From an uncultured Amylibacter sp. (GTDB taxonomy: Bacteria; Pseudomonadota; Alphaproteobacteria; Rhodobacterales; Rhodobacteraceae), in the NCBI GenBank assembly GCA_905182285.1, contig CAJJAY010000010.1:1-41894 (forward strand): DNA of 41,894 nt, written 5' to 3'. The translations under genes were made by a program, and so were the position numbers. Positions within the stretch are counted from its first letter, which is position 1. Every line of letters starts with the position of its first letter. Below are positions 9,967-34,553 of this stretch, piece after piece. The notes below the pieces were generated by a model. That model ran no database searches. It worked only from the letters and a program-made list of their open reading frames with translations, and was not told where the DNA came from.

Positions 9967-10032
9967 ACTGAACCGAGAGACATGAGCAATAAAAGCCACA
10001 AATTTGGCAAAAGATTAAACAGGGAGACTATT

Positions 10033-11001: not shown

Positions 11002-11015
11002 TCAAGATTAAGATT

Positions 11016-11048: not shown

Positions 11049-11067
11049 GACTAAGGGGAGAGTATTT

Positions 11068-12099: not shown

Positions 12100-12110
12100 A
12101 GGTTAAAATA

Positions 12111-13949: not shown

Positions 13950-14657
13950 TCAACTAATTAACCAACCACCATCAACATCTACTGTCGTTCCAGTTACAAA
14001 CTTATTTTTAACCACAAACATAATACCTTCTGCCACTTCATCTGCTGTTCCAGCTCTCGGTATTAGATTATCTTTTGTCATATTCTCGTATAATTTTTCT
14101 CTATCAGGCCCTTTAAGGGTAACCATTGGGGTATTTATTGTTCCAGGTGATACAATATTAATTCTTATCCTAGGAGAAACTTCTTTTGCCACTGCTCGGG
14201 CCATTGCCTCTACTGCGCCACCAACAGATGAAAGTGCTATTTGTCCAAATTTACAATTTCTTCCTGGTGAACCCGATACAAGAGTAATTGAACCCCCATC
14301 AGTTAAATGCTTTGAACCATGGCGAACAACGTTTGCATATCCCCACAATTTATCAAAAGATCCTTTAAAACCATCCATATCCATTTCTAAAAATGGACCA
14401 ATTGCTCGTTTTCCACCAGTAGCTGAACTTATTAAAATATCAAAAGGAGCAAGCTTTTCTAAAAGTATCTCTACACCCACTTCATCTCTCACATCACAAG
14501 CTACAAATTTAACCCCATTTGGTAATTCTGATTTTTTTTCAGATGATCGACCTATAGCAACAACCTCTGCTCCAGCTTTTTCCAACATCTTAACACTTGC
14601 TAGACCAATCCCAGATGTGCCACCAAATACTATTGCTTTTTTATTCATAAAATCCAT
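13950..14657 (-). CDS. SDR-fold protein lacking the usual catalytic Tyr and Lys
   Basis: The 235-residue protein has the short-chain dehydrogenase Rossmann fold: the cofactor loop GGTSGIG at about residues 12-18, CDVRDE, and the C-terminal VSPGTINTPM and VDGGWLIS. The active-site serine region is present (SGSPG), but the usual YxxxK reads LSSVG, so Tyr and Lys are missing. It may bind NAD(P) without classic reductase chemistry, or use altered residues. It ends the long minus-strand island and is separated from the RraA-like gene by 33 bases. AAGGAT precedes the start. Confidence 0.85.
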   Translation of the reverse strand: MDFMNKKAIVFGGTSGIGLASVKMLEKAGAEVVAIGRSSEKKSELPNGVKFVACDVRDEVGVEILLEKLAPFDILISSATGGKRAIGPFLEMDMDGFKGSFDKLWGYANVVRHGSKHLTDGGSITLVSGSPGRNCKFGQIALSSVGGAVEAMARAVAKEVSPRIRINIVSPGTINTPMVTLKGPDREKLYENMTKDNLIPRAGTADEVAEGIMFVVKNKFVTGTTVDVDGGWLIS

Positions 14658-14690
14658 CTGAAGTATCCTTTTAAGTTACTATCAATTTTC

Positions 14691-15383
14691 TCACGTTCGA
14701 GCTTTCTCAAAATCATTCCAAGCAGCTTCAAATGCATTGAAATCAAAACCTTTTTTACGTGCTGGATCCAATACCAATTTTTCTGTTTCCTGCATTTTCA
14801 AAATAGAAGCTTCTAAACCGTCTATGACGTCAATAGGAACTACAACTGCACCATGTCTATCAGCATGTACTAAATCACCCGATTTAATATTCAACCCAAA
14901 AACATTTATTGGCTGGTTAACACTGCGAACATGCACAAACCCATGGCTTGGGCCTATACTTCCAGCAACAACAGGGAAGTCTTCTGCCATATCACCTAGA
15001 TCTCTCATTACGCCATTAGTAAGCGCACCTGACATACCGAAACCTTTATGGATAGTTGTATTTACTTCGCCCCAAAAGGCTCCAATGCAATTTGGATAAT
15101 CCAGATCTTCAACAACTGCAATTGACGGTTTAACACTTTCTGACATTGCTCTGTAATAGCTCATACGACGCTCTCTAATTACAGAAACTGCTTCTGTAGG
15201 TGGTTCAATTGCTGCTATTTGAGCAGTAATAGCATAGCCAACAATGACACCTTTTTCATCAGAGGCAAGCATAGTACCCCTCGTGAAGTCATTAAAACCT
15301 CGCTTACCTTGGGCAACCTCTATTGCATTACAAACTGTTGGAGTATCCACAGATTGTAATAAATTTAAAAGTGATATTTTCAT
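14691..15383 (-). CDS. RraA-like / HMG aldolase family protein
   Basis: This 230-residue protein belongs to the RraA-like superfamily, whose members include 4-hydroxy-4-methyl-2-oxoglutarate/oxaloacetate-type aldolases and the RNase E regulator RraA. It shows VDTPTVCNAIE at the N-terminus, GAFWGEVNTTIHKGFGMSGALTNGVMRDL around residues 100-130, and GDLVHADRHGAVVVP near residue 180, where the Arg-Asp metal and substrate residues lie. In a catabolic context an aldolase or decarboxylase role is more likely than RraA function. The ATG at 15383 overlaps the hydrolase stop (ATGA) and has GGAGG four bases upstream; the longer start at 15398 is not needed. Confidence 0.85.
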   Translation of the reverse strand: MKISLLNLLQSVDTPTVCNAIEVAQGKRGFNDFTRGTMLASDEKGVIVGYAITAQIAAIEPPTEAVSVIRERRMSYYRAMSESVKPSIAVVEDLDYPNCIGAFWGEVNTTIHKGFGMSGALTNGVMRDLGDMAEDFPVVAGSIGPSHGFVHVRSVNQPINVFGLNIKSGDLVHADRHGAVVVPIDVIDGLEASILKMQETEKLVLDPARKKGFDFNAFEAAWNDFEKART

Positions 15384-16075
15384 GTATCCTCCAGCCAACT
15401 AGCAAGCGCTATAGTTGTAATTTTAGGTTGTTCCAATGTTGGAAGATGGCCTGCATCTTCTATAATTTTTAATTTACTATTTTCTAAAAGAGTATGCATT
15501 AATTCATGACGCTCTAGTGGGCATAAAACATCATGCCTACCACAAAGTACTAAAGCTGGGCCTTTGTATGATCGTAATGTATTTTTTTGGTCAACCCGCT
15601 CTCGAAGCGCAATGGATTGACGGATAAATACATCGGGGCCAATATCAAGCGCCATATCCATGCAAAGCTTTAATATCTCAGTTTTTCTAACTCCATCAAA
15701 AAGGTAATTAGGCTTCATTTCATCACGAATAATTTCTTTGAGGTGCCCTTTTTTAATTGCATCTATTTGCGGCTGCCGCTGTTTTGCTACTTCAGGCAAC
15801 TCAGCCAGTGGATTTGTGTCAAGCAATGCTAACCGCTCTACCCTTTCTGGGGCTTGAGATAAAATTTCCATTGCTACTATCCCACCCATTGAAAGGCCTG
15901 CTAATGCAAAAACTGGTGGTGTATTATTTAAAATAACAGAGGCCAATTCGGAAATTGATTCATAATCAGAAATTTGTGAAAAATGCACTTCTCTTTGCTT
16001 GGATAACTCTTTTATTTGAGGGGCAAAAAGGCGTTCATCACACATCATTCCGGGAAGAAAAACAAGCGGTGTCAT
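15380..16075 (-). CDS. alpha/beta hydrolase
   Basis: The 231-residue protein has the alpha/beta hydrolase core without a cap of notable size. The nucleophile elbow is GLSMGG (Ser near residue 62), the acid is in GRHDVLCP and the catalytic histidine in AGHLPTLEQP near the C-terminus. It resembles enol-lactonase and esterase-type members. It would cleave an ester or lactone intermediate, or a C-C bond, of the pathway encoded by this island. It overlaps both neighbours by ATGA (MetE-like gene before, RraA-like gene after), so these three are translationally coupled. Confidence 0.88.
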   Translation of the reverse strand: MTPLVFLPGMMCDERLFAPQIKELSKQREVHFSQISDYESISELASVILNNTPPVFALAGLSMGGIVAMEILSQAPERVERLALLDTNPLAELPEVAKQRQPQIDAIKKGHLKEIIRDEMKPNYLFDGVRKTEILKLCMDMALDIGPDVFIRQSIALRERVDQKNTLRSYKGPALVLCGRHDVLCPLERHELMHTLLENSKLKIIEDAGHLPTLEQPKITTIALASWLEDT

Positions 16076-17196
16076 GAGGCTAAGGCAGCACCTTCAGATA
16101 GAGATTTGAGCTTCGCATAGGCAATTTGTGGGTCAACAGCTCCAAAACCAGCAAAAGTACCAAACCCACAGTCTGATCCTGCAATAACTCTGTCTTTTCC
16201 TACGATATCAGTAAAACGATCAATTCGCTGCGCAACAAGTTCTGGATGTTCAATGAAATTAGTTGTCGTATCAACTACGCCAGGGACTAATATCTTATTA
16301 TCAGGAATCTCAGACTTTCTATCTCTGAATACTGTCCATTCATGCGCATGTCTTGGGTTGGAGGTTTCAAATAATAAATATCCTGCATTTGCAGACATCA
16401 AAGTAGAAAACATTTTATCCATAGGAATATCACAACAATGAGGGCCTTCATAATTCCCCCAACAAATATGAATTCTAACTTTTTCTTCTGGCACATCCTT
16501 TAAAGCATAATTTAATGCTTCAACATGTGAAGCCGCAACTTTAAGAAATTCATCATCGCTTAAATCATTAAAAAGCATATGCCTTGAGAGAGCTAAATCG
16601 GGACAATCTAATTGCAGATCCAAGCCAGATGCGACAATTGTTTCATATTCTGCTTTCATGGCCTCCGCTAAAGCAGATAAGTATTCTTCCCGTGTTTTAT
16701 AAAAATCATTCTGTAAAAATAACGAGATTACTCCTGGAGAGGCTGCATTCATGAAACCTCTTGTTTTTCCATTAGCAGACATTGCAGCCTTTAAATTGCT
16801 AATATCTTTTTGTAATTCCCCTTGTCCCTTTGAAGAAACTGGCCCTGTACACATTGGTCTAGCATATTGAGGCGTACCTCCGTCATTCGCAAGGCGTTCC
16901 AAAAAAGTAGGGAACATCTTAAGGTCAGCAGGTGCATTTCGGGGGCTATCTCCAGAAAAACCTGTATAACGATCCTTTACATATGTTGCATAAGAAATTT
17001 TTGAAGTTTCACCATCACTAACTATATCAATTCCAGACTCTGTTTGTTTTTTAACGGTCTCATTAACAGCTTTTGTCATTGTTTTATCAAATAATGATTC
17101 ATCGTAAGAAACACCATTTTCGCGGGCAAATATAAAGTCAACAACCTCTTGAGATCTCGGAAGACTGCCAACGTGCGAAGTAAGAATTTTTGTCAT
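16072..17196 (-). CDS. MetE-core (cobalamin-independent methionine synthase II family) protein
   Basis: This 374-residue protein matches the catalytic C-terminal half of MetE without the N-terminal folate domain duplication. Candidate zinc ligands are His243 and Cys245 in RIHICWGNYEG, Glu277 in LLFETSN and Cys343 in AGSDCGFGTF. It starts ILTSHVGSLPRS. Family members include core methionine synthases and epoxyalkane:coenzyme M transferase, which activate a thiol with zinc. It may move a methyl or alkyl group between the pathway substrate and a thiol or folate. Context within a catabolic operon, not methionine genes, argues against housekeeping methionine synthesis. It overlaps the downstream hydrolase gene by 4 bases. 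Confidence 0.85.
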   Translation of the reverse strand: MTKILTSHVGSLPRSQEVVDFIFARENGVSYDESLFDKTMTKAVNETVKKQTESGIDIVSDGETSKISYATYVKDRYTGFSGDSPRNAPADLKMFPTFLERLANDGGTPQYARPMCTGPVSSKGQGELQKDISNLKAAMSANGKTRGFMNAASPGVISLFLQNDFYKTREEYLSALAEAMKAEYETIVASGLDLQLDCPDLALSRHMLFNDLSDDEFLKVAASHVEALNYALKDVPEEKVRIHICWGNYEGPHCCDIPMDKMFSTLMSANAGYLLFETSNPRHAHEWTVFRDRKSEIPDNKILVPGVVDTTTNFIEHPELVAQRIDRFTDIVGKDRVIAGSDCGFGTFAGFGAVDPQIAYAKLKSLSEGAALAS

Positions 17197-17216
17197 AATT
17201 TTTCTCTCAAATAATG

Positions 17217-18185
17217 TTAAATATTAGTCCATGTAGGCCCTGCAGGGTCATCATTAGATATCACACGATACATGCTTGCCTCTCCAGCCATAGAAGGTTC
17301 AAGTATATGTGAGAATCCAGCAGGTAAAATGCATGTATCACCTGGATTCAAAGTAACTGTTTCATTTTCCCACCTTAAAAACCAATGACCACGCATTGGC
17401 ATTAAAACAATTGAATGTTTAAATGTTAAGACTTCATTATGAAATGATCCTCGAGTAACAAAATCCACTTCAAAACCTGGCTTATCTGGCAAAACTGCAT
17501 CTTCACCAATTACTTTTATTGGAGACTTACCTGCCAAACCCATCAAATCTAGGTAGCGTGCTACATGCCTTGGGATCACATTTATAGCGAGCGGTTCTGG
17601 CATCTTCTTTAATTTTTCGCCTGACAATACGGGCATAGGTGAAACATCTGTAGGCAGCTTTTGCCCTTTTTTGCTATCATAAAGTTTTCCATTGTCTCCC
17701 AAGATTAAACCATGATCTGCGGCATCTTGAATAACTTGTGGAGCCCATGTGACACCACCTCCTGCATCATCACCACCTAAAACGGCCATAATCATTCCAT
17801 AATCTATTCCAATATTTTCAAAGCCCCGAAATATCCCAGTAGGAATATTTATTATATCACCTTCTTCTAATACTACTTCACCTGCGTCGCCCCATCTTCC
17901 CCAAAAAAATCTCCATCTGCCTTTAAGCACAAAAAAAACTTCAGCTGTGGTATGGCTATGCAAAGAGTTTCTACATCTTGGAGGTTGACCTGCTGCTCCT
18001 ATATTAAATCCAGGGGTATCTTTTATATGTACATGCTGATCAGGGCTTTCAGAAACACCACCTCCAATTATCGTGAAGTTTTCTTTTTGATCACTGCCAG
18101 GAGTATGTGCGTCAATAAAGGCAGTCTTACATGGGACTAAATCTCCATATCGAACGATACGCGCTTCTATTTCTAATGGTGTCAT
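17217..18185 (-). CDS. bicupin-domain protein
   Basis: The 322 residues hold two cupin domains. The first (about residues 70-150) has NSLHSHTTAEVFFVLKGRWRF with metal-type His-x-His and Glu, then GDIINIPTGIFRGFENIG. The second (about 230-310) has the pattern FKHSIVLMPMRGHWFLRW followed by LNPGDTCILPAGFSH, with fewer metal ligands. Bicupins of this kind include gentisate dioxygenase relatives, oxalate decarboxylases and isomerases, and non-enzymatic binders. The exact reaction is unknown. It is located between the MetE-like and SnoaL-like genes in the island. Confidence 0.85.
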   Translation of the reverse strand: MTPLEIEARIVRYGDLVPCKTAFIDAHTPGSDQKENFTIIGGGVSESPDQHVHIKDTPGFNIGAAGQPPRCRNSLHSHTTAEVFFVLKGRWRFFWGRWGDAGEVVLEEGDIINIPTGIFRGFENIGIDYGMIMAVLGGDDAGGGVTWAPQVIQDAADHGLILGDNGKLYDSKKGQKLPTDVSPMPVLSGEKLKKMPEPLAINVIPRHVARYLDLMGLAGKSPIKVIGEDAVLPDKPGFEVDFVTRGSFHNEVLTFKHSIVLMPMRGHWFLRWENETVTLNPGDTCILPAGFSHILEPSMAGEASMYRVISNDDPAGPTWTNI

Positions 18186-18189
18186 TTTA

Positions 18190-19158
18190 CTATCCTGTCT
18201 TCATCGCGATTTGTTTCCAAATCGAGGTTTCATCATATAAAGTATATTCACGGCGAATTCCCCATGGGCCAAATTCAACATGACTTGCTCCCATAACATG
18301 AACTTCTGCCCCAGTGGGTTTGCCAAAAGCGCCCCAACCTTCATGCTTTCCAGTCAAGCTCCATCGAATTGCAGATCTTGGAGACATCATTGGATCTTCT
18401 CGACCAATTTGATGGTCAATTGAAAATACAGACGTTGGAAATGCTGCACGTAACTTAGTCCAGAAATTATCGACACCATCTGTAGAATATAGTTCAACCC
18501 CTCCAGGATAGAATCCTGTAACTGCACGATCATATTCAGAAGGGATAACACTCAAATCAGCATTCATAATTTTATTTAAAATATCTGCATATTTAGAGCC
18601 CCATTTATTATCATTTCCATGGCCAGTATATGGCCCAACTTTATCAATTGATGGATGAAATGGTTTAATGCATTTTTCTGGGCCGCCTTCTCGAGCAATA
18701 AGATCTAAAGCATATTCTTTTGGATCCCAACCTAATTGGCGCACAACAGCTCCCTGATCTCTAATTAACCATTCATCATTAATTTGATTATTTATGGCAT
18801 GACAATCAGCTATAACCCTATATCGCAGCTTTTTTCCTGTTGCTTTTCCATATACTCCATCACCAAGATGCGTTGCAGTTGTTAAGATACGATGAGAGGA
18901 TAACATTCCTTCTTCAGGCGTACCTGACCAAATAACATCTTCGCCCAAAAGCCTGCGATCAGGGAATTCAGCAAGTGTTGACATAGTTGCGCCAATAACG
19001 CCTTCATTACCAAACACAATTGATCCAGGTGATCTAACTGGAATATCTTTAGAGTAATAATGATTAAGTGTAGCCAAACCTCTATCTTCCCAAATCTCTT
19101 TTGTAATTCCTAAAATATAATCAGGGAAATTTTTAAACTGGTCTGAGAAACCTTTCAT
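18190..19158 (-). CDS. SnoaL/NTF2-fold protein
   Basis: This 322-residue protein resembles the SnoaL-like, NTF2-fold family (polyketide cyclase/ester cyclase type), apparently two domains. The N-terminal one contains ITKEIWEDRGLATLNHYYSKD and later CHAINNQINDEWLIRDQGAVVRQLG; the C-terminal one ends WGIRREYTLYDETSIWKQIA. It differs clearly from the other three SnoaL-like proteins in the island. Such folds catalyse ring closure, dehydration, isomerisation or epoxide hydrolysis. The start at 19158 overlaps the LacI gene stop (ATGA) with GGA upstream; an ATG nine bases earlier has poor ribosome-site spacing. Confidence 0.8.
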   Translation of the reverse strand: MKGFSDQFKNFPDYILGITKEIWEDRGLATLNHYYSKDIPVRSPGSIVFGNEGVIGATMSTLAEFPDRRLLGEDVIWSGTPEEGMLSSHRILTTATHLGDGVYGKATGKKLRYRVIADCHAINNQINDEWLIRDQGAVVRQLGWDPKEYALDLIAREGGPEKCIKPFHPSIDKVGPYTGHGNDNKWGSKYADILNKIMNADLSVIPSEYDRAVTGFYPGGVELYSTDGVDNFWTKLRAAFPTSVFSIDHQIGREDPMMSPRSAIRWSLTGKHEGWGAFGKPTGAEVHVMGASHVEFGPWGIRREYTLYDETSIWKQIAMKTG

Positions 19159-20174
19159 GAGGTCCATCCTTTCGGTACTTTTGCAGAACTGCGAATAATC
19201 AAAGGGCTTTCAACCTTTATATGTCTTGGCTCTAGTGATGGGTTAGTAATTTTATCCAACATAAGAGAAACTGTTTCTTCAACCATAATATTTGAACGTT
19301 GGCGCATTGTAGTAAGATCATATGCAGCCAATGCAGCAGGCGGCACATCGTCGTAACCAATAACACTTACATCATCAGGAATTTTCAAGTTTAGTTCATT
19401 GCGCAATACATCCATTACAGCAAATGCCATGGAATCTTGCACAACAAAAACAGCGTCAGGATAATTTGGTTTGTTAAACATTTCTCTGGCAACTTCTTTT
19501 GCACGCTCCACAGTAAAATCGCCTAATGCATGTGCAGCTAATTGTTGATTTTCTTCCTTCAATCCCTCACGAAAACCCGCCTCACGATCTCGATGTGTTG
19601 ATGCACCTTCCCAACCACCAATATAAGCAATTTTTTTGTGCCCAGCAGCTAGTAGAAATTTGGATACAGTTTTACCACCCTCAAAATTGTCAGATGTAAC
19701 TGCTGAATGCTCTTTTGACTCTTGCGCTCTGTTAAAGAGCACAACTGGAACTCCTGCAGCTTCACAGCGCGCTGTAAGATCACTGGATATACTAACACTA
19801 GCAGCAATTATTCCATCTACCTGATAATCTAACAATCCATCAATAACGTGGTCAGTTGATTCACTATCATTTGATGCCATAAAAATCAAAACATGATAAC
19901 CAAGAGCTTGCAAAGCATTTGAAATTTTTTCTAATGCTACAGGATAAAAATAATTGTCCAAATAAGCTACAACAAGGCCAATAATTCTACTTTTTCCAGT
20001 AATCAATGAACGTGCTAATATATTTGGTCGATAGCCAAGTTCAATAGCGGCAGCGCGAACCTTTAGCATAGTCTTTGAACTAGCGGAGGCGCCAGGTGTA
20101 AACACCCTGCTTACAGCTGATTGGCTTACGCCAGCTAACTTAGCTACTTCAAGAGAGGTGACTCTATCTACCAT
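19155..20174 (-). CDS. LacI family transcriptional regulator
   Basis: The 339-residue protein starts with a LacI helix-turn-helix and hinge, VTSLEVAKLAGVSQSAVSRVF, followed by LGYRPNILARSLITGKS. The rest is a periplasmic-binding-protein-like effector domain (IIGLVVAYLDNYFYPVALEKI, IGYDDVPPAALAAYDLTTMRQ). It should bind a palindromic operator and release it on binding a small pathway ligand. A likely operator is at 28207-28226. I start at the ATG at 20174, whose A overlaps the SDR stop (TGATG), rather than the in-frame TTG at 20189. It lies inside the operon it probably controls, giving autoregulation. Confidence 0.95.
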   Translation of the reverse strand: MVDRVTSLEVAKLAGVSQSAVSRVFTPGASASSKTMLKVRAAAIELGYRPNILARSLITGKSRIIGLVVAYLDNYFYPVALEKISNALQALGYHVLIFMASNDSESTDHVIDGLLDYQVDGIIAASVSISSDLTARCEAAGVPVVLFNRAQESKEHSAVTSDNFEGGKTVSKFLLAAGHKKIAYIGGWEGASTHRDREAGFREGLKEENQQLAAHALGDFTVERAKEVAREMFNKPNYPDAVFVVQDSMAFAVMDVLRNELNLKIPDDVSVIGYDDVPPAALAAYDLTTMRQRSNIMVEETVSLMLDKITNPSLEPRHIKVESPLIIRSSAKVPKGWTS

Positions 20175-20932
20175 CAGCCTGCAGTCCAACCTCCATCAAC
20201 AATCAAATGAGTTCCAGTAACCAATGATGATGCATCAGAAGCCAGATAAACAGCAGCACCCATTATATCTTCCACCTCACCTATGCGTCCAAGTTTGATT
20301 TTTTGCTTTATTAGATTAGCTCTTTCCACATTATCAAAAGTTTCTTTTGTTAGGGGTGTTCGGATAAATGTTGGGCAAATAGTGTTAATACGGATATCAA
20401 ATGGGCCCCATTCAATTGACATGCTTTTAACCATACCTTCAATTGCATGCTTTGAGGCAGAATAAACCGTTCTATCAGTACCTCCAACATGACCCATTTG
20501 TGATGATATATGTATGATTGAACCACTTATTCTAGCAGTCTTCATGGCTTTTGCCGCATACACTGATAAAAAATATGCTGATTTTAAATTTAAGTCGATT
20601 ACAGCATCAAAATCTTCAGGCAATGTATCAAATGCTGGATTATGCCTTGCCATACCAGCAGAATTTATAACCACATCAAAAGGATCTAACATAAGCTTCT
20701 CTAAAGCATTCAAATTTGTTTGATCTAAAGCTAATGCCTCTGCATCAAAGCCTCTGGCATTTATTGATGAAACTGTTTTATTTAGAAGATCTATTCCACG
20801 TGATACACAAATTACTTTTGCTCCAGACTGTGCCATTGCAACTGCACAAGCTTGGCCAATTCCAGAAGATGCACCCGTAACCAATGCACGTTTTCCTTTT
20901 AATGAAAATGAGGGCAATGAGGGTAAAATCAT
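20174..20932 (-). CDS. short-chain dehydrogenase/reductase
   Basis: This 252-residue classical SDR has all the usual elements: TGASSGIG (about residues 18-25), NSAGMARH, the serine in IHISSQMG, the catalytic VYSASKHAIEG (YxxxK), and the C-terminal DASSLVTGTHLIVDGGWTAG. It would oxidise or reduce a secondary alcohol or ketone with NAD(P). Its position beside the HpsN-like dehydrogenase recalls the 2-dehydrogenases that act with HpsN on dihydroxypropanesulfonate, but that is analogy. It overlaps the upstream SnoaL gene by ATGA and the LacI gene by one base. Confidence 0.93.
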   Translation of the reverse strand: MILPSLPSFSLKGKRALVTGASSGIGQACAVAMAQSGAKVICVSRGIDLLNKTVSSINARGFDAEALALDQTNLNALEKLMLDPFDVVINSAGMARHNPAFDTLPEDFDAVIDLNLKSAYFLSVYAAKAMKTARISGSIIHISSQMGHVGGTDRTVYSASKHAIEGMVKSMSIEWGPFDIRINTICPTFIRTPLTKETFDNVERANLIKQKIKLGRIGEVEDIMGAAVYLASDASSLVTGTHLIVDGGWTAG

Positions 20933-21981
20933 TTACTTGCTCCAATTGGGTAAGAAACATTTACTGGAACACGTGCCTTGTTAAATTCTCGCAAACGCGC
21001 AAACACGTCAACGCCTAATTGATAATAGACATCAAGCAAATCAACCAGCACCCAGTTTTCACGGATTAAGTCACCTTCCACCCTCCAAAAATCTAAACTT
21101 CTCATCGTAATTTCTTGACCTGATGGGGCAATACCCAGCCAACCATCTCCTGTAACAGTCATTTGCATATTGGGCCATCCAGTAGCTACAACATAAGGCC
21201 CGTCCCCAAAAAAATCACATGTTAAATCACCAGTCGTGCCACCTTTGCGGTCAGGCAAAGCATTGAGAAATGGAATTTGATGCCAATTCCTAAAGCCTTC
21301 TAAACCTCGCATTGAACCAATACCTGCAGGTCCATACCAATTGAAAGATGGATGCCAGTATTTCTCAGATTGCATTATTTCAGGGCCACCTTCAGAAGGG
21401 TGCCGAGATAAATTAGTTAACATTCCGATTACTACATCTAAACTATTTGCAGATTGATTGAGCGTTCGATTTACAGAAATTAACCCATCTTGGCTGGCAG
21501 GCCCAGGTATAAACAATTCACGTCCCAAACTTGGTGACATTGGCCAAGCACCTGCTTGCATCATAAGTTCTGGGATATCCCATATTGATTGAACCTCCAC
21601 AATTTTGTCATCAACAAAACAATAAAACTCATGGAAACGCATGTGAACTAAATGTCCTGTTGGCGGTATGTCCAAAAATGGTGAGACAAATGTGCCAACA
21701 TACGAACCACAACAACCTACCCAATATTTATTACCAGCTGTTTGTCCACTGACAAGGATTGTATCTCTGCGCTCAATATCTGGAATTGCCTCTACCAAAG
21801 GAGCATAACAATTGTTATAAAATTCACTCTTTAAAACATCACCAAACGGATGACATATGTGAATTTTTACATCTATTGAAAATGTTTTTTCAATAAAAGA
21901 TCGCACAGCCAATTCATCAAAATCATACATTGCAGTTAAAAACGGCTTTATAATTTCCTGATTTTTCTGCGCGATATTCAT
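20929..21981 (-). CDS. two-domain SnoaL-like protein
   Basis: This 350-residue protein appears to contain two NTF2-fold SnoaL-like domains: about residues 5-155 (with GHLVHMRFHEFYCFVDDKIVE) and about 185-335 (WYGPAGIGSMRGLEGFRNWH, then DFWRVEGDLIRENWVLVDL). The end motif GDLIRENWVxxDLLDVYYQLGVDVF is shared with the proteins at 23310-23843 and 28331-29317. It is a close relative of the latter. The chemistry is unknown. It abuts the dehydrogenase gene with no gap and overlaps the SDR gene, so stoichiometric co-expression is likely. Confidence 0.82.
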   Translation of the reverse strand: MNIAQKNQEIIKPFLTAMYDFDELAVRSFIEKTFSIDVKIHICHPFGDVLKSEFYNNCYAPLVEAIPDIERRDTILVSGQTAGNKYWVGCCGSYVGTFVSPFLDIPPTGHLVHMRFHEFYCFVDDKIVEVQSIWDIPELMMQAGAWPMSPSLGRELFIPGPASQDGLISVNRTLNQSANSLDVVIGMLTNLSRHPSEGGPEIMQSEKYWHPSFNWYGPAGIGSMRGLEGFRNWHQIPFLNALPDRKGGTTGDLTCDFFGDGPYVVATGWPNMQMTVTGDGWLGIAPSGQEITMRSLDFWRVEGDLIRENWVLVDLLDVYYQLGVDVFARLREFNKARVPVNVSYPIGASK

Positions 21982-23310
21982 TTATTTTTCTACTTCACGA
22001 AAAGCAGCACCTTCACCATATGGAACGTTTATGCCTCCATACCTTCGCACTCGAATATTACATTGTTCCGCATGCCCTACAAATCCTTCTAACATGCACA
22101 ATCTACTCCCATATTCACCTACAAGTGTTGCAGCTTCATCAGTTAATATTTTTTGATATGAATGCGTTTTTAAAAACTTACCAACCCATAATCCACCAGT
22201 GTATCTGCCTGCTTTTTTTGTAGGTAAAGTATGATTTGTACCAATCACTTTATCACCATTTGAAACATTAGTTCGAGCCCCCAAGAACAATGCTCCATAA
22301 CAAGTCATTTTTTCTAAAAACCAATCATCTCGGTCAGTCATAACCTGTACATGCTCTGAAGCTATTTCGTTGGCAACTATTAACATCTCTTCATAAGTGT
22401 CACACAAAATAACTTCACCATAATCAGCCCAGCTTACAGAAGCAGTTTCTGCAGTTGGTAATATCTTAAGCAATCTATCAATTTCATTAAGTGTATCTTC
22501 AGCTAATTTGCGAGAATTAGTTAACAAAACTGCTGGACTATTATACCCATGCTCAGCTTGACCCAATAAATCTGTCGCACATAATTCTCCATCAACAGTC
22601 TCATCAGCAATAACCATAGTTTCTGTAGGCCCAGCGAATAAATCAATTCCTACACGACCAAAAAGTTGCCTTTTAGCTTCTGCTACAAATGCATTTCCAG
22701 GACCAACAAGCATATGGACAGGTTCTATACTTTCAGTGCCAATGGCCATTGCTCCAACTGCTTGAATTCCCCCCATTACATAAATTTCATGCGCACCACC
22801 TAGATGCATTGCAGCAATGACCGCTGCATTAGGCTTACCTTCAAAAGGTGGAGTACAGGCAATAATTCTAGGAACTCCAGCAACTGTTGCAGTAGCAATC
22901 GACATATGGGCTGAAGCAACCATAGGGAACTTCCCCCCAGGCACATAACAGCCAACAGATTGTACAGGAATATTTTTATGTCCTAAAATAACACCAGGGA
23001 TTGTTTCAATTTCAATATCAAGCATGCTATCTCTTTGTGCCTTGGCAAAATTTCGAACCTGTTCTTGGGCAAACTTAATATCTGAAAGTTCACGATCTGA
23101 TAAGGAAGCTATCAAATCAGATATTTCTTTTTCTGTAAGCTTAAAGTTTTCAGGCGAGTAGTTATCAAACTTTGCAGAAAGTTCACGTACTGCAGTGTCA
23201 CCATCAATTTCAATATTTTTTAATATTTCTTCAACAATAACTTTTGTTTTAGCATCGTCCTCAGCTCTTTCTGCATCTGGCTTACCGCTTTTAAGATATT
23301 CTATAGTCAT
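21982..23310 (-). CDS. HisD-family dehydrogenase resembling sulfopropanediol 3-dehydrogenase (HpsN)
   Basis: The 442-residue protein is homologous to histidinol dehydrogenase but of the catabolic subgroup. It keeps [11 protein letters not shown] and SEHVQV (zinc and catalytic residues), and a C-terminal [14 protein letters not shown] histidine. Around the substrate site it reads [24 protein letters not shown] and [11 protein letters not shown], as I remember for HpsN-type enzymes that oxidise a terminal CH2OH to a carboxylate in two NAD+-dependent steps. Biosynthetic HisD is elsewhere in the window. HpsN acts on (R)-2,3-dihydroxypropane-1-sulfonate; here the substrate may be that or an analogous diol. 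No sulfolactate-degrading enzymes are visible. It is coupled to the upstream SnoaL gene by TAATG. Confidence 0.85.
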
Positions 23311-23843
23311 TAATTACTCCCAATTTCAGGTGGGGTTTTCGTACCATTATCAAAAGCCTCCCAGCCATGTCCGTTAAAAACATCAATGCCTAATTGTGCA
23401 AGGACGTGAGGAAAATCAACCATTACCCAATTATCTGTAATTTTCCCATTTTCTACTTTCCAGAAATCCATATATCGGATTTGGATTTTTTTTCTTGTGG
23501 CTTCAACACCCATAAAAAGGCCTGAATGAATTGCTTCTTGGCGGCCGAATGCAGCAGCCCATTCACCCATATATAGTCGTGCTTCATCTATACAAACTTT
23601 TTCAGAAAATGCCGCTTGAAATGGTTTCTGCCAGTTTTCTTGAAATTCTTTTATTCCATTTTTCGTTCCACATCCGGCATTACCCATCCAGCTAAAGCCT
23701 TGGCTAAAAAATTCTCCAATATCAGCTATACGGTGATCATTTAGTCCATCCACCATATTTTCAATTACCGCACGAGTTTCCTCAGTTTTGGACATATCTG
23801 TATTTTGAGTTAACTCTGCTTGTTTTGGTCGTAACCCACTCAT
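23310..23843 (-). CDS. single-domain SnoaL-like protein
   Basis: This 177-residue protein is a single NTF2-fold unit. It has [19 protein letters not shown] near residue 50, then [35 protein letters not shown], matching the conserved end motif of the two-domain relatives in the island. It overlaps the permease stop by ATGA and shares one base with the dehydrogenase start (TAATG). An internal ATG at codon 17 is an alternative start. Its function may be binding, isomerisation or dehydration of the transported substrate. Confidence 0.83.
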
Positions 23844-24721
23844 CCTTTTACAGCTCCCGCAGTTAAGCCACTTACAATTTGGCGTTGAAAAAATAAAATT
23901 AAAATAAATAATGGAGCCGTCGCTGATACCACTGCAGCAACAGCAAACATTACATTACCCTCTGTTTGTGTTGTTCCTAAAAAACTTGCAATCTTTGGAA
24001 CCATTGTTTGATTAGCTTGGCTTAATAATGTGGCTGTTACAGTAAAATCATTATAAGCTAGAAGAAACGAGAATAAGCCTGTTGTTACAACTCCGGGCCA
24101 CATTACAGGAATAATTACGTGGCGAAATGCCTGAAAGCGAGTACACCCATCTACCATAGCGCTTTCATCTAAGTCTTTTGGTATATTAAGAAAAAAACTA
24201 TGTAACATCCATAATGTAAAAGGTTGATTTATTGCTACCATAACAATTATCGCAGTAGGAATATGCCCCCAAAGATTCCATTCAAAAAATGGAAGCAAAT
24301 ACCCTGAAACCAAAGTTATGTGAGGCATTGCTCTAAAGACTAATGCTAACATTAATAGATAAAATGCATATCTTTTTCCTGATCTCGCCAATGCATATCC
24401 ACCTAAAGTACCAAGCGTAAGTGAAATAATAACTACAGAAAATACAATAATTCCTGTGTTAATTGCAGCTAACCAAAAACTTTTTGTAATCCACGCACCG
24501 AAATAACCACTCCCTGTGAAAGCACCACCAGTTTCGACTTGTGTTCGAACTCCAGTAATAGCGTTTGTCCAATCCGCTTTTGAGAAAAAGTCGCCTTGGA
24601 CCTTAAAAGAACCCCAAAGCGTCCAGAAAAAAGGAAAGCTTGCTGCAATAATCCAAACTAAAACAAACCCCCATATTATCATATTTAAAACTGGCGAACG
24701 TCGCTGAGCTAAACTAGGCAT
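23840..24721 (-). CDS. CUT1-type ABC transporter permease (MalG-like)
   Basis: The 293-residue membrane protein has about six predicted transmembrane segments and the EAA loop ESAMVDGCTRFQAFRHVIIP near residue 205, as in MalG/UgpE-type sugar and polyol permeases. It pairs with the preceding permease. The ATG at 24721 shares a base with the stop of that gene (TGATG); an in-frame GTG sits one codon upstream. It ends with [11 protein letters not shown], a common MalG-type ending. Confidence 0.92.
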   Translation of the reverse strand: MPSLAQRRSPVLNMIIWGFVLVWIIAASFPFFWTLWGSFKVQGDFFSKADWTNAITGVRTQVETGGAFTGSGYFGAWITKSFWLAAINTGIIVFSVVIISLTLGTLGGYALARSGKRYAFYLLMLALVFRAMPHITLVSGYLLPFFEWNLWGHIPTAIIVMVAINQPFTLWMLHSFFLNIPKDLDESAMVDGCTRFQAFRHVIIPVMWPGVVTTGLFSFLLAYNDFTVTATLLSQANQTMVPKIASFLGTTQTEGNVMFAVAAVVSATAPLFILILFFQRQIVSGLTAGAVKG

Positions 24722-25752
24722 CACACAACCTTCCTATTAAATTCTCGCCATGTCCGAATTAGAACTGGTATTAATAAAACACTTACACCAATAATAGTTA
24801 GAACTGATGTTGCTCCTGCGGATCCAAAAAACTGATCTTCGTTATTAGAAATATCATTATAAATAATCCATGAAAGTGAAGTTGCATTTGCTTGAGCAGA
24901 AAAGCCTACTATTGGCTCAAATACTCGAAAATTATCCATTAACTGGATTAATAAAATAAATATAGTCAGTGGCATTAAGTGAGGAAGAACTACATATTTT
25001 GTGCGCTCCCAGCGTGATGCACCATCTATCATTGCTGCTTCAATAGTATCACTAGGAACAGTCTGTAGCCCTGCATAAAATACTATGAAAGCAAATGGAG
25101 ATGAATGCCATACGCCATAAACCATAAGCATTATCCAAGTAAGCAATGGTGATGCTTTTAAAGACAGATTTGGATCATCAAAAATTTCTTGCAGAATTGA
25201 GCCAATAATTCCTTGTGCATCAATCATCCAAAATAAAATTAAAGAACCGATGAGTGGTGTAACAATCATTGGTAGTAATGAAATAAAAATAGTTGGACCT
25301 TTCATAACCTTAGGCAAACTATTTACACCTAGTGCAATTAAAAAACCAAAAAATAAGACAAAAGGTGTGACTATAAATGTATATGTTAGAGTAAAAGCTA
25401 AAGCTCGGTAGAATGGTAAATTTAGGCTCATTGATATAAAACTTATAAAGCCTTCACTTTCAATCCAAGCCTGTTGAATTTCTTTAAATGCTAAGTGGTT
25501 TCGGTTTGTGTATGTCCCAAATCCATTAAACTTTCCAAGCGGGTTTTCTAATTTTAGTTTTTTTGTTTCTTCGACATCTATAACTAATTCTTTCTTACAA
25601 CCAAAAGGTCCACAGTTTTCAACTTCATTCAAAACTGCTTCATGCTCAATATGGAGTGATTGCACGACTACTGAAACAATAGGTAACGCAATAAATAACA
25701 ACATTGTTATTAAAGAAGGTAATATAAACCAAAAAAAAGTACGGTTTTTCAT
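24721..25752 (-). CDS. CUT1-type ABC transporter permease (MalF-like)
   Basis: This 343-residue membrane protein has an N-terminal transmembrane helix, then a long loop of about 90 residues with a cysteine pair (Cys47, Cys52), probably periplasmic, before the core permease domain. The EAA loop reads EAAMIDGASRWERTKYVVLP near residue 245. It matches MalF/UgpA-type permeases. It follows the binding-protein gene after a hairpin and is coupled to the second permease. The substrate is unknown. Confidence 0.92.
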   Translation of the reverse strand: MKNRTFFWFILPSLITMLLFIALPIVSVVVQSLHIEHEAVLNEVENCGPFGCKKELVIDVEETKKLKLENPLGKFNGFGTYTNRNHLAFKEIQQAWIESEGFISFISMSLNLPFYRALAFTLTYTFIVTPFVLFFGFLIALGVNSLPKVMKGPTIFISLLPMIVTPLIGSLILFWMIDAQGIIGSILQEIFDDPNLSLKASPLLTWIMLMVYGVWHSSPFAFIVFYAGLQTVPSDTIEAAMIDGASRWERTKYVVLPHLMPLTIFILLIQLMDNFRVFEPIVGFSAQANATSLSWIIYNDISNNEDQFFGSAGATSVLTIIGVSVLLIPVLIRTWREFNRKVV

Positions 25753-25778
25753 CTTGATCGCCAGAAATAATTTAAAAT

Positions 25779-25803
25779 AGGAGGAAGCATTACACTTCCT
25801 CCT
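25779..25803 (-). terminator. intercistronic hairpin between binding protein and permease
   Basis: AGGAGGAAG and CTTCCTCCT form a perfect 9-bp stem with a 7-nt loop, followed on the minus strand by ATTTTAAA. It lies between the binding-protein and permease genes. It is probably a partial terminator or RNA-stabilising element raising binding-protein expression, and it also buries a Shine-Dalgarno-like AGGAGG. Confidence 0.7.
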
Positions 25804-25809
25804 GTGAGT

Positions 25810-27045
25810 TTATTTTAAGAAACCTTTTTCTTTAGCAGCAGTAGTATAAGCAGCTTCAACATCTGCTAAAGCTTGCTCTGCACTCTCAGTACCTTGTAAG
25901 AAATCAGAAATTTCTCCACCTAGCGCACCATGTAAAGTTCCCATAAATGGCAACATTGGATAAGGTGCAGCACCATTAGCAGCAGTTTCAGAAACTCCAG
26001 CAGATGCAGGACTTGGCTTATAACCTTCAACTAACCATACAGCCGCATCATTATTTGCTTTAACCATGTCGGATGAAATTCCGTTCATTAAAGCAATAAA
26101 TGTTGCCTCTGCATCTTCGTCAGATACATTTGTAGAAATACCTATGCCATCCCACCAAAGTGTAGATGCAGGTCTTGCACCATTGCCCCACAATGGAGCA
26201 GACGAAAGAACAGTATTTGAAGATACACCATCTACTGAACCTTCTCCGTCAAGTACCGCGCTTCCTCTAGAGCCCCACATTGTTGCTAATGCTAAGTTTC
26301 CAGCTTCCCATTCTGCTTGAGTAGCGTTTGAATCATAAGTTAAAAAATCTGGATTTGAATAAGCAACAAGAGATTTAAGCATATTAAGAGTTGCAACACC
26401 ATGATCATTATTTATGGATACTTCAGCGGTTCCAGATTTAAATAAATCTGCACCTGTTCCCATGTACATATTCACAAATTCTTCACCTAAATTCCAACCT
26501 GCTTTAGTGTTTAAAGCAACAGGATATTCTAACAGTCCAGCACTTCGGATTGCATCAGCTGCAGAAATAACTTCTTCATAGGTTCCAGGTATATTGCTTA
26601 CACCAGCTTTTTCCAACATATCAGTTCTAGTAAATAAATGTTGGGCATTAGCCATAAATGCAACAGCCATAACTTTGCCATTTACCGTAATTAATTGGCT
26701 TTTATTTAATCCAGAGCCATGCTTTGCTACCAAATCATCAAGAGATCTTACTAAACCATCATTCATCAAAGTGACTAGCGTAGAATTTGATACTATTACA
26801 GAAGAATACTGTGATGGATTTGCAGTTAGTGCTGCAACCATTATATCTTTGTGGTCTTTTGTTAAATTGGTTTCAACTGTTACTCCATTACCTGCACACT
26901 TGGCAGCTTCTGCAGTTACAGCTTGAATTGCTGGGAAATCATTTGAAAGAATGCTGACATTACCGCCAGAAATTCCACAGTCAGCTATTGCTGAACTTCC
27001 CAAAAGCGCGAACGCTCCCGCGAATGTTATTGTCTTTAGAAACAT
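25810..27045 (-). CDS. CUT1-type ABC transporter substrate-binding protein
   Basis: This 411-residue protein has a signal peptide of about 21 residues ending SSAIADC. The mature region looks like an extracellular solute-binding protein of family 1 (UgpB/MalE type), with LVTLMNDGLVRSLDDL, ATMWGSRGSAVL and the C-terminal half containing TLWWDGIGISTNVSDEDAEA. It should capture the transported solute in the periplasm. GGGAG precedes the start. Its tryptophan and aspartate content does not identify the ligand. It is the second gene of the minus-strand island after the ATPase. Confidence 0.92.
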   Translation of the reverse strand: MFLKTITFAGAFALLGSSAIADCGISGGNVSILSNDFPAIQAVTAEAAKCAGNGVTVETNLTKDHKDIMVAALTANPSQYSSVIVSNSTLVTLMNDGLVRSLDDLVAKHGSGLNKSQLITVNGKVMAVAFMANAQHLFTRTDMLEKAGVSNIPGTYEEVISAADAIRSAGLLEYPVALNTKAGWNLGEEFVNMYMGTGADLFKSGTAEVSINNDHGVATLNMLKSLVAYSNPDFLTYDSNATQAEWEAGNLALATMWGSRGSAVLDGEGSVDGVSSNTVLSSAPLWGNGARPASTLWWDGIGISTNVSDEDAEATFIALMNGISSDMVKANNDAAVWLVEGYKPSPASAGVSETAANGAAPYPMLPFMGTLHGALGGEISDFLQGTESAEQALADVEAAYTTAAKEKGFLK

Positions 27046-27098
27046 AAGTTACTCCCTATTTTTGTTGTAGATACACTCAATAGAATATATCTTTTGGA

Positions 27099-27139
27099 CC
27101 CCTTTTTTTGGGGGATTATTTTAGGGGGCTAATCCCCTA
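27099..27139 (-). repeat. two adjacent G/C hairpins after the ATPase gene
   Basis: TAGGGG (27122-27127) and CCCCTA (27134-27139) form one stem that includes the ATPase stop codon. CCCC (27099-27102) and GGGG (27110-27114) flank a run of seven T's and form another. Because the arms can also cross-pair, two mutually exclusive folds are possible. A role in mRNA processing or differential expression of the binding protein is inferred. Confidence 0.45.
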
Positions 27140-28178
27140 TTCGACCACCTGTTTGATCATCAAACAAATGACAAATTCTTTTTGGCACTGATATACGAAC
27201 CATATCTCCTATCTGTGCACGGTAATCTTTTGCAGCTTTTACTGATACTAACTCTTTATTTACACGAACTGTAATCATTGTAGCATCACCTAGTAACTCC
27301 ATTGCAAAAACTGCTGCATGAATTTCACCACCATCTTTTACAATCGAAGCATCTTCAGCTCGGAAGCCTAATTGAATAGGCCCATCCATTTTAGTAAAAC
27401 CTGAAATCTTTATAAAATCGCCTTTAAAGGTTTTATTAACAATTTCACCTCGAACAAGGTTCATTGCAGGTGATCCTATAAAACTTGCAACAAATGAATT
27501 GGCTGGGTGATCATATATATCTGTGGGACTTCCTACTTGTTGAACAATGCCATCCTTCATTACCACAACTCGATCAGCAAGTGTCATGGCTTCGATCTGA
27601 TCATGGGTCACATAAATAGTTGTTACCTTTAACTCATGGCTTAAGTTTTTAATCTGAGCTCTTGTCGAAACTCTTAATTTTGCATCTAAGTTGGACAGCG
27701 GCTCATCCATCAGAAATACATTAGGCTCACGAACAATAGCGCGAGCCAGGGCAACTCTTTGTCTCTGCCCTCCTGATAATTCTGCAGGCTTTCGATGTAA
27801 GAATTCATCTAATTCTACCATTGAAGAAGCACGCATTACACGCTCTTCATGTTCAATTTCAGGTATTTTACGAACTTTTAATGGAAACCTTATATTTTCA
27901 TATACATTCATATTTGGGTAAAGTGCATAAGATTGGAAAACCATAGCTACATCTCGATCTTTTGGATCCAAATCATTAACACGCTTACCATCAATCATTA
28001 TATCACCATCAGTAGCATCCTCTAAGCCAGCAATCATACGCATGGTAGTAGTTTTGCCACATCCAGAAGGCCCTAAAAGTACCAGAAACTCTTGATCTTT
28101 TATGGTTAAATTAAGATTATCAACTCCAACAAAAGATCCCCATCTCTTTGATAAATTATGAAGTTTTATTTCTGCCAT
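27129..28178 (-). CDS. CUT1-type ABC transporter ATP-binding protein (UgpC/MalK-like)
   Basis: The 349-residue ATPase has Walker A GPSGCGKTT, the Q-loop FQSYALYPNM, signature LSGGQRQRVALARA, Walker B FLMDEPLSNLDAK and a C-terminal TOBE-like regulatory domain (about residues 235-345). This is the MalK/UgpC family. The start at 28178 has AGGGGG spaced well upstream and the family-typical AEIKLHNLSKRWG beginning; the longer ORF from 28241 would run through the LacI operator and is rejected. It is the first gene of the minus-strand island, divergent from a SnoaL-like gene. Confidence 0.95.
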   Translation of the reverse strand: MAEIKLHNLSKRWGSFVGVDNLNLTIKDQEFLVLLGPSGCGKTTTMRMIAGLEDATDGDIMIDGKRVNDLDPKDRDVAMVFQSYALYPNMNVYENIRFPLKVRKIPEIEHEERVMRASSMVELDEFLHRKPAELSGGQRQRVALARAIVREPNVFLMDEPLSNLDAKLRVSTRAQIKNLSHELKVTTIYVTHDQIEAMTLADRVVVMKDGIVQQVGSPTDIYDHPANSFVASFIGSPAMNLVRGEIVNKTFKGDFIKISGFTKMDGPIQLGFRAEDASIVKDGGEIHAAVFAMELLGDATMITVRVNKELVSVKAAKDYRAQIGDMVRISVPKRICHLFDDQTGGRIGD

Positions 28179-28206
28179 GCATTTCCCCCTAGTAGTCTGA
28201 GACCAC

Positions 28207-28226
28207 TTTTGCATACGTTTGCAAAA
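28207..28226. promoter_or_regulatory. LacI-type operator
   Basis: TTTTGCATACGTTTGCAAAA is a 20-base palindrome with a central CG and a single mismatched pair. This is the usual form of a LacI/PurR/GalR-family operator. It lies 29 bases before the ATPase start and in the divergent promoter region shared with the plus-strand SnoaL-like gene, so the LacI regulator at 19155-20174 may control both transcription units. Confidence 0.75.
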
Positions 28227-28330
28227 AAGATAGACTTTCATTTTTGTTTCTGCAACAATAAATTTATGTAAATAAGCCTCTTGCTCTATATTATTGATAT
28301 ATCGCTAAAAATAACGAAAAGAATTTATAT

Positions 28331-29317
28331 ATGTCTGGCTACCAAAGTGAAAAGCGCCTTATAATTGATTATTACAAAGCATTAGACTCAGCGCCTAGCT
28401 CTAGAATCACCCACGTTTTAGAGAGCTTTACTTCATCAAATTACATATGGCGAGGATTTCACCCCTTTGGTCTACAAACAGATATAAATCAAATTTCTGA
28501 AATATTTTGGAAGCCCTTTAAACAAGCTTTGACTAGCATGCAAAGGCGAGAAGATGTATTTTTTGCTGGTACCAATTTCATAGATAAAAATTCGTCTATA
28601 TGGGTTTGCTCCATGGGGCATTTAATAGGATTATTTGATTTTCCATGGTTGGGCATTAAACCAACAAAAAAATTAACAATGCTAAGATATGCAGAATTTC
28701 ATAAGGTCGAAAATGGAAAAATTTCTGAAACAGCATTTTATTTTGATATTCCACATTTAATGATTCAGGCCGGATATTCTCCATTTTCTGATCAAAAAGC
28801 AGCTCACATAATACAACCAGGGCCAGCTCCTCATGATGCACTACTTTTTTCTGACGCAGCCGTTGCTGAAAGTAAAAAAACAATGGATGCAATAAATTTT
28901 ATGATTGAAGATTTAGGCCAGTGGGATAGCGGATTACCATTGGTTGAGGAACTTGCACGTAGTTGGCATGATGATATGATTTGGTGGGGGCCCGCTGGAA
29001 TTGGATCGACCTATACAATTGAGAGATATGCTAAACAACATTCAGGACCTTTTCGTGCAGCATTTAGTGACAGAACTGGAACTGGTCATATAGCTCGGAT
29101 ATCTGAAGGAAATTATGGTGGTTTCTTTGGATGGCCAAATTTTACAGCAAAACCAACCGGTGGTTATTTAGACTTACCTCCCAGTAATCAAATTGGTGAA
29201 TTTCGAGTAATCGATATTTATCGCCGCGAAGGTGATAAATTAAAAGAAAATTGGGTATTCATAGATCTATTATATTTCTTTAAACAACAAGGCATAGACA
29301 TACTAAATAAGATTTAG
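28331..29317 (+). CDS. two-domain SnoaL-like protein, divergent
   Basis: This 328-residue protein is a close relative of the product of 20929-21981, with two NTF2-fold domains. It shares LTMLRYAEFHKVENGKISE in the first, WWGPAGIGSTYTIERY at the start of the second and the ending DKLKENWVFIDLLYFFKQQGIDIL. It is the only island gene on the plus strand and shares the divergent promoter and LacI operator. No strong Shine-Dalgarno is seen (AAAAGAA). It probably works on the same or a related substrate; duplication may reflect a heteromeric enzyme or two steps. Confidence 0.82.
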   Translation: MSGYQSEKRLIIDYYKALDSAPSSRITHVLESFTSSNYIWRGFHPFGLQTDINQISEIFWKPFKQALTSMQRREDVFFAGTNFIDKNSSIWVCSMGHLIGLFDFPWLGIKPTKKLTMLRYAEFHKVENGKISETAFYFDIPHLMIQAGYSPFSDQKAAHIIQPGPAPHDALLFSDAAVAESKKTMDAINFMIEDLGQWDSGLPLVEELARSWHDDMIWWGPAGIGSTYTIERYAKQHSGPFRAAFSDRTGTGHIARISEGNYGGFFGWPNFTAKPTGGYLDLPPSNQIGEFRVIDIYRREGDKLKENWVFIDLLYFFKQQGIDILNKI

Positions 29318-31131: not shown

Positions 31132-31201
31132 TTAATGCTTCACAATAATATTTTACATGTTAACTATCGATACAAAGTTTTTAGATAAAAGGAGCATTAA
31201 C

Positions 31202-34532: not shown

Positions 34533-34553
34533 TTGTATAATTCCTCCAGTAAG

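Follow-up and report, generated by a model that had tools for sequence, protein, structure and literature searches.

A 41,894-nucleotide stretch of DNA from an uncultured Amylibacter sp. (NCBI GenBank assembly GCA_905182285.1, contig CAJJAY010000010.1; genome of 1.9 Mb, 84% complete), referred to here as the window, carries 15 minus-strand genes from position 28178 down to 13950, to which a divergent plus-strand gene, Sno4 (28331-29317), also belongs. We read these genes, with moderate confidence, as a LacI-controlled catabolic regulon that would import a carbohydrate- or cyclitol-like compound, oxidise a terminal CH2OH group to an acid and end in aldol cleavage. Comparison across genomes showed that the genes belong together, a putative LacI-type palindrome marking them whether clustered or dispersed. 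The regulon probably lets many marine and some soil bacteria consume a small sugar-like or ring-shaped compound. The genes encode a CUT1-type ATP-binding cassette (ABC) importer, a HisD-superfamily dehydrogenase (HDH), two short-chain dehydrogenases (SDR1 and SDR2), four SnoaL-like proteins (Sno1 to Sno4), a bicupin, a core-MetE-like protein, an alpha/beta hydrolase, an RraA-like protein and a LacI-family regulator. These open reading frames (ORFs) and families, the four SnoaL proteins included, are, with small corrections, those of an earlier note made from the letters of the window.

That note had proposed a search for the conserved gene set in other genomes. Once run, the search found that the set recurs and that its genes occur together, not solely independently. 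A bicupin match (E <= 0.001) was present in 15 of the 61 genomes searched first, the window's own included, two of the matches being weak. In the strain HTCC2255 (G030), the 15 operon genes are all present in unchanged order, at 81-96% identity (L039), and Sno4 is present as well (L136). A Paracoccus alcaliphilus plasmid has the same gene order without the MetE-like gene and SDR2, and the order on a Ruegeria plasmid is almost identical, the MetE-like gene included, apart from one extra NTF2 protein and the lack of an adjacent RraA-like gene. When species genomes were scanned with the bicupin alignment, at least 545 relatives were confirmed, and the best 80 of these were analysed as loci, with flanks of up to 10 kb, identity thresholds that we set ourselves and some short contigs. 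Counted in this way, the LacI regulator was found in 64 of the 80 loci, HDH in 60, Sno3 in 57, SDR1 in 53, the MetE-like protein in 48, Sno2 in 46, the RraA-like protein in 42, the permeases in 42 and 40, the ATPase in 39, the solute-binding protein in 38, the hydrolase in 37, Sno1 in 35 and Sno4 in 5. The carriers were, by record title, mostly Rhodobacteraceae and Hyphomicrobiales, with two Granulosicoccaceae and one Marinobacterium metagenome-assembled genome. By these matches, the set recurs in many Rhodobacteraceae, in rhizobia and in a few records labelled Gammaproteobacteria. SDR2 (13950-14657, minus strand), which the earlier note had counted as a member, was found in 1 of the 80 loci (HTCC2255); it is probably a local addition and not part of the core.

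The genes also co-occurred across the class. Among 289 genomes, bicupins were found in 22 (E <= 1e-60), MetE-like proteins in 49 (E <= 1e-100) and HDHs in 39 (E <= 1e-150). Close subsets, with cut-offs chosen after seeing the lists (bicupin E <= 1e-114, MetE E <= 1e-185, HDH at least 74% identity), comprised 17 bicupin, 15 MetE and 20 HDH genomes. Close bicupins were accompanied by close MetE-like proteins in 15 of the 17 bicupin genomes (Fisher 3e-23) and by close HDHs in 14 (Fisher 1e-16), values to be read in the light of non-independent genomes and post-hoc cut-offs. The bicupin and MetE-like genes lay 0.9-2.0 kb apart in 13 genomes and on separate contigs in 2. Six genomes had a close HDH without a close bicupin. 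Five of them were fetched: three hold the HDH and little else of the set, and in the small genomes G295 (1.4 Mb) and G197 (1.6 Mb) the set is present in diverged form. By best match, G295 has the permeases, the solute-binding protein, SnoaL proteins of all four types, the MetE-like protein (54%), HDH (75%), an SDR (39%), the RraA-like protein (33%) and the bicupin (31%), the LacI regulator and the ATPase being absent from the stretch. The set of G197 is shorter and lies close to the end of a contig; its LacI matches at 31%. Pfam confirmed the RraA-like protein in G295 and the cupin in G197.

The regulator itself (19155-20189, minus strand; first Met codon at 20174) has both the LacI helix-turn-helix and the periplasmic-binding-like domain. 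Between the divergent ATPase and Sno4 genes lies the palindrome TTTTGCATACGTTTGCAAAA (28207-28226), which occurs once in the window and is likely the operator. It is even, has a CG centre and precedes its predicted target genes, in keeping with the available part of PMC4052901, according to which LacI regulators typically recognise even palindromes with a central CG. The pattern TTTGCANACGTNTGCAAA, at up to 3 mismatches, had 2 matches in the window compared with 0.58 expected, and 13 of 100 shuffles reached 2; the match at 28207-28226 was without mismatch. The palindrome is kept in HTCC2255, and the same divergent Sno4 arrangement with the operator is seen in relatives. In many loci, similar palindromes precede ATPase, solute-binding protein, HDH, SnoaL or bicupin genes, in a scan at up to 3 mismatches that had no control. 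At the same tolerance, a palindrome was carried by the lone-bicupin loci L053, L060, L063, L069 and L081 and was not seen in some others, e.g. L076, L088 and L092. The consensus from 47 distinct sites in the fetched loci, on both strands, was ATTTTTGCATACGTATGCAAAAAT.

In whole genomes, an 18-base pattern at up to 1 mismatch gave 23 sites in 16 of 24 genomes, the backward pattern giving 0. Of these sites, 21 adjoin set genes or genes found with set genes. The other two lie off the set: one in G258 adjoins genes resembling, by eye, another LacI-linked sugar or inositol region, and no related genes were seen beside the one on G033 contig 20. An exact 16-base pattern gave 23 sites in 16 of 34 carrier genomes and 0 for the backward control, and all 23 adjoin set genes if diverged forms are counted, such as an HDH at 45% (G343) and a solute-binding protein at 26% (G349). 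One genome is common to the two samples (G033 = G329). Several sites mark genes lying apart from a main cluster. G003 and G027 have a second operator-bearing locus with a solute-binding protein, permeases and two SnoaL genes; in G033, the MetE-like gene with an HpcH/HpaI gene has its own site, and so does a lone bicupin; in G008, one site is flanked by an Amidohydro_2 gene (then an amidase) and an SDR1-like gene. That scattered genes bear the operator is our strongest evidence, and suggests that the MetE-like protein, the bicupin and the SnoaL proteins serve one purpose.

It is extremely unlikely that independent genes were assembled locally without a common pathway. Parts of the set are indeed absent or elsewhere in some genomes, as such an assembly would allow; nevertheless, the parts located elsewhere through the operator are the missing set genes, and the co-occurrence across the 289 genomes also speaks against it. 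Because the set recurs across genomes and the operator is common to its members, the grouping goes beyond chance. The claim that the genes form one functional unit with its own LacI regulator is well supported, by recurrence and by the conserved operator-like palindrome.

The earlier note had called HDH (21982-23310, minus strand) HpsN-like, and the homology is real: its best solved relatives are 2,3-dihydroxypropane-1-sulfonate (DHPS) 3-dehydrogenases (E 1e-111). The available part of PMC11382572 describes an HpsN motif, G-R-Y-A/S-H, ending in the sulfonate-binding His126, a HisD motif, G-S-A-P-L, and the roles of the zinc and catalytic residues Q248, H251, D352, H411, E318 and H319 (CpHpsN numbering). 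The corresponding residues of HDH (Q251, H254, D353, H413, E319 and H320) are invariant in 15 aligned sequences, and Lys354, the equivalent of HpsN Lys353, is also kept. These features, together with the rank of HpsO as fourth relative of SDR1, would suit a variant pathway for DHPS or another C3-sulfonate, in which HDH acts as HpsN, SDR1 as HpsO and the ABC importer takes up the sulfonate. We consider such a pathway very unlikely, since HDH carries G-K-F-P-M, which is neither the HpsN nor the HisD motif. Among 92 distinct relatives with at least 60% identity, GKFPM was found in 83, GKYPL in 4, GKYPM in 3 and no recognised motif in 2, and GRY[A/S]H in 0 of the 90 with a recognised motif. Nine more distant relatives had GRYPL (5), GRFPL (2), GRYAH (1) or no recognised motif (1).

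The context of GRYAH enzymes also speaks against a sulfonate. HTCC2255 holds three HDH types, GLASY, GKFPM and GRYAH, and after its GRYAH gene come genes for an SDR and a zinc-type alcohol dehydrogenase, a separate operon that is hpsNOP-like (gene names by resemblance). Paracoccus alcaliphilus p77023 has both types: near the GKFPM cluster lies a GRYAH HDH together with genes for D-cysteine desulfhydrase and a taurine-type transporter (L021:24434-30960). The family hits listed for the cluster proteins include no sulfolyase (SuyAB, Xsc or CuyA), a search that did not extend to the rest of the genome. Motif, context and the existence of a separate hpsNOP-like operon led us to reject DHPS, and the compound is probably a different one; the guess of a DHPS-like sulfonate in the earlier note is not supported either. 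We conclude from these comparisons that HDH is an HpsN relative that should not be named a DHPS dehydrogenase. This matters because the GKFPM branch, annotated as histidinol dehydrogenase, could be mistaken for HpsN in surveys of DHPS genes.

In the window genome, two HDHs only were found, that of the cluster and a gene at 3612-4928. The latter, on the same contig, has the motif GLASY (not GSAPL) and is 37% identical to the cluster HDH. With the NCBIfam hisD model (cut-off 243.8 bits), it scored 529.7 bits, the cluster HDH 424.9 and the GRYAH enzyme 435.5; because all types pass the cut-off, the model does not separate them.

Close HDHs also occur in smaller units, in Sulfitobacter, in Marinovum and in G002 (as a second GKFPM gene), with an SDR and/or an HpcH/HpaI-type gene, a TAXI-type tripartite ATP-independent periplasmic (TRAP) transporter and a LacI-type or other regulator. 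In G002, for instance, the second GKFPM HDH is accompanied by an HpcH/HpaI-type aldolase, a TRAP permease, an NMT1-like binding protein and a LacI-like regulator (L202:8228-14456). From these smaller units, we read oxidation followed by aldol cleavage as the core chemistry.

The importer gives a hint of the kind of compound taken up. It consists of a MalK/UgpC-type ATPase (27129-28178; Pfam ABC_tran and TOBE_2, NCBIfam UgpC subfamily above cut-off), a solute-binding protein of the SBP_bac_1 family (25810-27045) and two permeases (A, 24721-25752; B, 23840-24724), all on the minus strand, which together make a CUT1 ABC importer with a TOBE domain in its ATPase. The distant solved relatives of the binding protein are mostly sugar-binding proteins. 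SDR1 (20174-20932, minus strand) is close to KduD and gluconate dehydrogenases. All this would agree with catabolism of an O-methylated or deoxy sugar, sugar acid or polyol, in which a lactone is opened, oxidation and aldol cleavage follow, the MetE-like protein demethylates and the SnoaL proteins act as keto-sugar dehydratases or isomerases. Further in its favour, Amidohydro_2 and HpcH/HpaI genes stand beside the same operator in relatives, and most characterised LacI members sense sugars, as stated in the available part of PMC4052901. We regard this route as possible but doubtful: no sugar kinase, enolase- or IlvD-type dehydratase or glycoside hydrolase was among the Pfam hits of the set. 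Besides, to our knowledge, a sugar route would not usually involve a bicupin and as many as four SnoaL proteins.

The SnoaL proteins are of two kinds. Sno1 (23310-23843, minus strand) is a single NTF2 domain, whereas Sno2 (20929-21981, minus strand) and Sno3 (18190-19167, minus strand) by Pfam, and Sno4 by alignment with Sno2, are tandem two-domain proteins. The confident structure model of Sno3 (predicted local distance difference test score, pLDDT, 92.6) has a predicted tandem NTF2 fold, an alpha+beta cone in each domain, and Foldseek matched it to IdmH (E 6e-8, target TM 0.78), SnoaL-type proteins and Lsd19. Over both domains, the fit to Lsd19 is poor (rmsd 15-17).

The 3-His/1-Glu metal site of cupin dioxygenases is formed by HxHxxxE in motif 1 and a His in motif 2. 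In the bicupin (17217-18185, minus strand), motif 1 is present and invariant (H76, H78 and E82), but Arg120 replaces the motif-2 His in 16 of 16 and 23 of 23 aligned sequences, so that the 3-His/1-Glu site is incomplete. Its sequence had no significant match among solved structures (best E 0.033). The first-domain model is poor (mean pLDDT 64.8, with residues 17-53 and 58-81 below 50), and the Foldseek matches from this unreliable model, to 3-hydroxyanthranilate, quercetin and salicylate dioxygenases and oxalate decarboxylase, are weak hints.

The MetE-like protein (16072-17196, minus strand) is a probable zinc thiol alkyltransferase. H243, C245, E277 and C343 are invariant in 13 sequences and are its putative zinc ligands, an assignment (His, Cys, Glu, Cys) that we take over from E. 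coli MetE. Its similarity to solved superfamily members is weak (profile E 2e-9), and methyl or alkyl transfer is possible. The hydrolase (15380-16075, minus strand) is PcaD-like, with a score below the cut-off of the PcaD model. RraA-type aldolases/decarboxylases have a catalytic Arg-Asp pair, and in the RraA-like protein (14691-15398, minus strand; first Met codon at 15383; Pfam RraA-like above cut-off) a GVMRD stretch was read by eye.

From these families, a route can be proposed. A small polyhydroxylated molecule resembling a carbohydrate or cyclitol would enter through the CUT1 importer. The HisD-type enzyme would convert a CH2OH beside an O- or N-bearing carbon to COOH in a four-electron step, SDR1 would oxidise a secondary alcohol, and an RraA- or HpcH-type aldolase (RraA in the window) would release pyruvate or oxaloacetate and an aldehyde; this order of steps we infer. 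Least certain are the roles of the tandem SnoaL proteins, which may perform cyclisation, ring-opening, dehydration or retro-aldol chemistry, of the bicupin (isomerisation or oxidative cleavage), of the hydrolase, which may open a lactone or beta-dicarbonyl, and of the MetE-like protein, which may pass a methyl or alkyl group to a thiol.

One specific candidate is very unlikely, namely a ring-cleavage pathway for UV sunscreens of the mycosporine/gadusol type, suggested by the enzyme families and the structures of these compounds. Their six-membered enone rings bear a hydroxymethyl carbinol and a methoxy group. Demethylation by the MetE-like protein would give a reductone, and the HisD-like enzyme would convert the hydroxymethyl to a carboxylate. 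Ring opening would fall to the bicupin, SnoaL proteins and hydrolase, and the RraA-like aldolase would act on a 4-carboxy-4-hydroxy-2-oxo acid, a kind that some relatives cleave. The available part of a review (PMC3083659) reports that bacteria form 4-deoxygadusol from shinorine and porphyra-334. Pantothenate, ascorbate and arsenosugar, also considered as substrates, were dropped. Genes of the amidase, GMC oxidoreductase and PNPOx-like kinds turn up nearby now and then (one GMC by annotation, others by eye) and pointed to no substrate.

Several observations weigh against the reading as a LacI-controlled catabolic regulon. The set is patchy, the bicupin being present in 10 of 33 genomes of the genus, the window's own included. 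A close HDH lies outside the flank in 20 of the 80 loci and the MetE-like protein in 32 (some being contig ends or scattered sets), and the wider MetE family is found in many genomes without a close bicupin (49 at E <= 1e-100). The near-exact 18-base operator is absent from 8 of the 24 genomes, and the exact 16-base operator from 18 of the 34. NCBIfam labels HDH, like the GRYAH enzyme, a histidinol dehydrogenase above cut-off, and SnoaL chemistry in catabolism is itself a prediction made here. With this operator and with carriers in culture, such as Marivita, Roseibium and Paracoccus alcaliphilus DSM 8512, the substrate can be sought directly by experiment.

The spacing of the genes was described by the earlier note as 1-4 base overlaps or tiny gaps. 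The ATPase gene does start at 28178 (MAEIKL), in a longer ORF that begins at 28241. The 14 junctions then comprise 8 overlaps (1-19 bases), 1 zero and 5 gaps (4-83 bases): +83, +57 and -4 from the ATPase to permease B; -4, -1, 0 and -4 from permease B through Sno1, HDH and Sno2 to SDR1; -16, -13 and +4 from SDR1 through LacI and Sno3 to the bicupin; and +20, -4, -19 and +33 from the bicupin through the MetE-like, hydrolase and RraA-like genes to SDR2. If the LacI and RraA-like genes begin at their first Met codons, -16 becomes -1, -19 becomes -4 and the overlaps span 1-13 bases. The description is thus fair for overlaps with first-Met starts, but does not hold for the gaps of 20-83 bases.

Beyond the cluster, a 159-residue protein beside SDR2 (13158-13637) has no Pfam or NCBIfam match at E <= 0.001 and is 89% identical in HTCC2255. 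A glycine-betaine-type ABC importer (OpuAC, permease and ATPase; 9805-13157) lies just past the cluster, and HTCC2255 has an ATPase gene and ORFs of similar length at this position. On the other side, after Sno4, are genes for PxpB- and PxpC-like 5-oxoprolinase subunits and a DUF1330 protein (29439-31492), likewise in HTCC2255; PxpA was not among the proteins scanned. Serine-cycle-type genes adjoin the cluster at 31497-41764 (glycerate kinase, HpcH lyase, aminotransferase, CoA ligase subunits and hydroxyacid dehydrogenase; last ORF not scanned), as they do in HTCC2255, judged by order and length. Apart from the window and HTCC2255, a glycerate-kinase relative was found in 1 of 80 loci (L088). 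The idea that the MetE-like protein feeds the serine cycle was rejected, these neighbours, like SDR2, looking local to the genus.

The earlier note knew of no described pathway with this set, and our search agrees: none was among the literature matches listed, subscription papers and supplements lying outside the search. Queries with annotation names gave zero matches, and nothing resembling the set was among the matches listed for homarine. The regulon, sharply bounded and with its own operator, points to a common natural compound for which no described breakdown route was found among these matches. In the available part of an ISME J paper on HTCC2255 and a sister species (PMC10203303), a table includes a cupin protein, and the text mentions an ABC transporter for carbohydrates whose substrate is given as unknown; either may or may not belong to this set.

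Among known systems, hpsNOP of Roseobacteraceae and Cupriavidus pinatubonensis resembles the set in combining a HisD-superfamily dehydrogenase, whose zinc and catalytic residues HDH keeps, with an SDR. Unlike hpsNOP, the set has GKFPM in place of GRY[A/S]H and a CUT1 ABC importer with LacI, and it is without a zinc-type alcohol dehydrogenase and, among its family hits, a sulfolyase. The SnoaL-type polyketide cyclases and Lsd19 share the NTF2 fold; the SnoaL proteins of the window differ in being tandem and in belonging to a catabolic-type operon with an importer, and no polyketide synthase was among the family hits of the set. The MetE superfamily of thiol alkyltransferases includes the methionine synthases as well as epoxyalkane:coenzyme M transferase. 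The putative zinc ligands H-x-C, E and C are intact in the MetE-like protein, which differs in its weak similarity to solved members and in adjoining the bicupin in this regulon. The local sugar regulons of the LacI family in PMC4052901 share with the set a local regulator, an even CG-centred palindrome and an adjacent ABC importer and dehydrogenases. That study has 54 regulator groups with an unknown sugar pathway, among which this regulon may have been predicted before. The regulon of the window differs from those sugar regulons in counting several SnoaL proteins, a bicupin and a MetE-like protein among its predicted targets.

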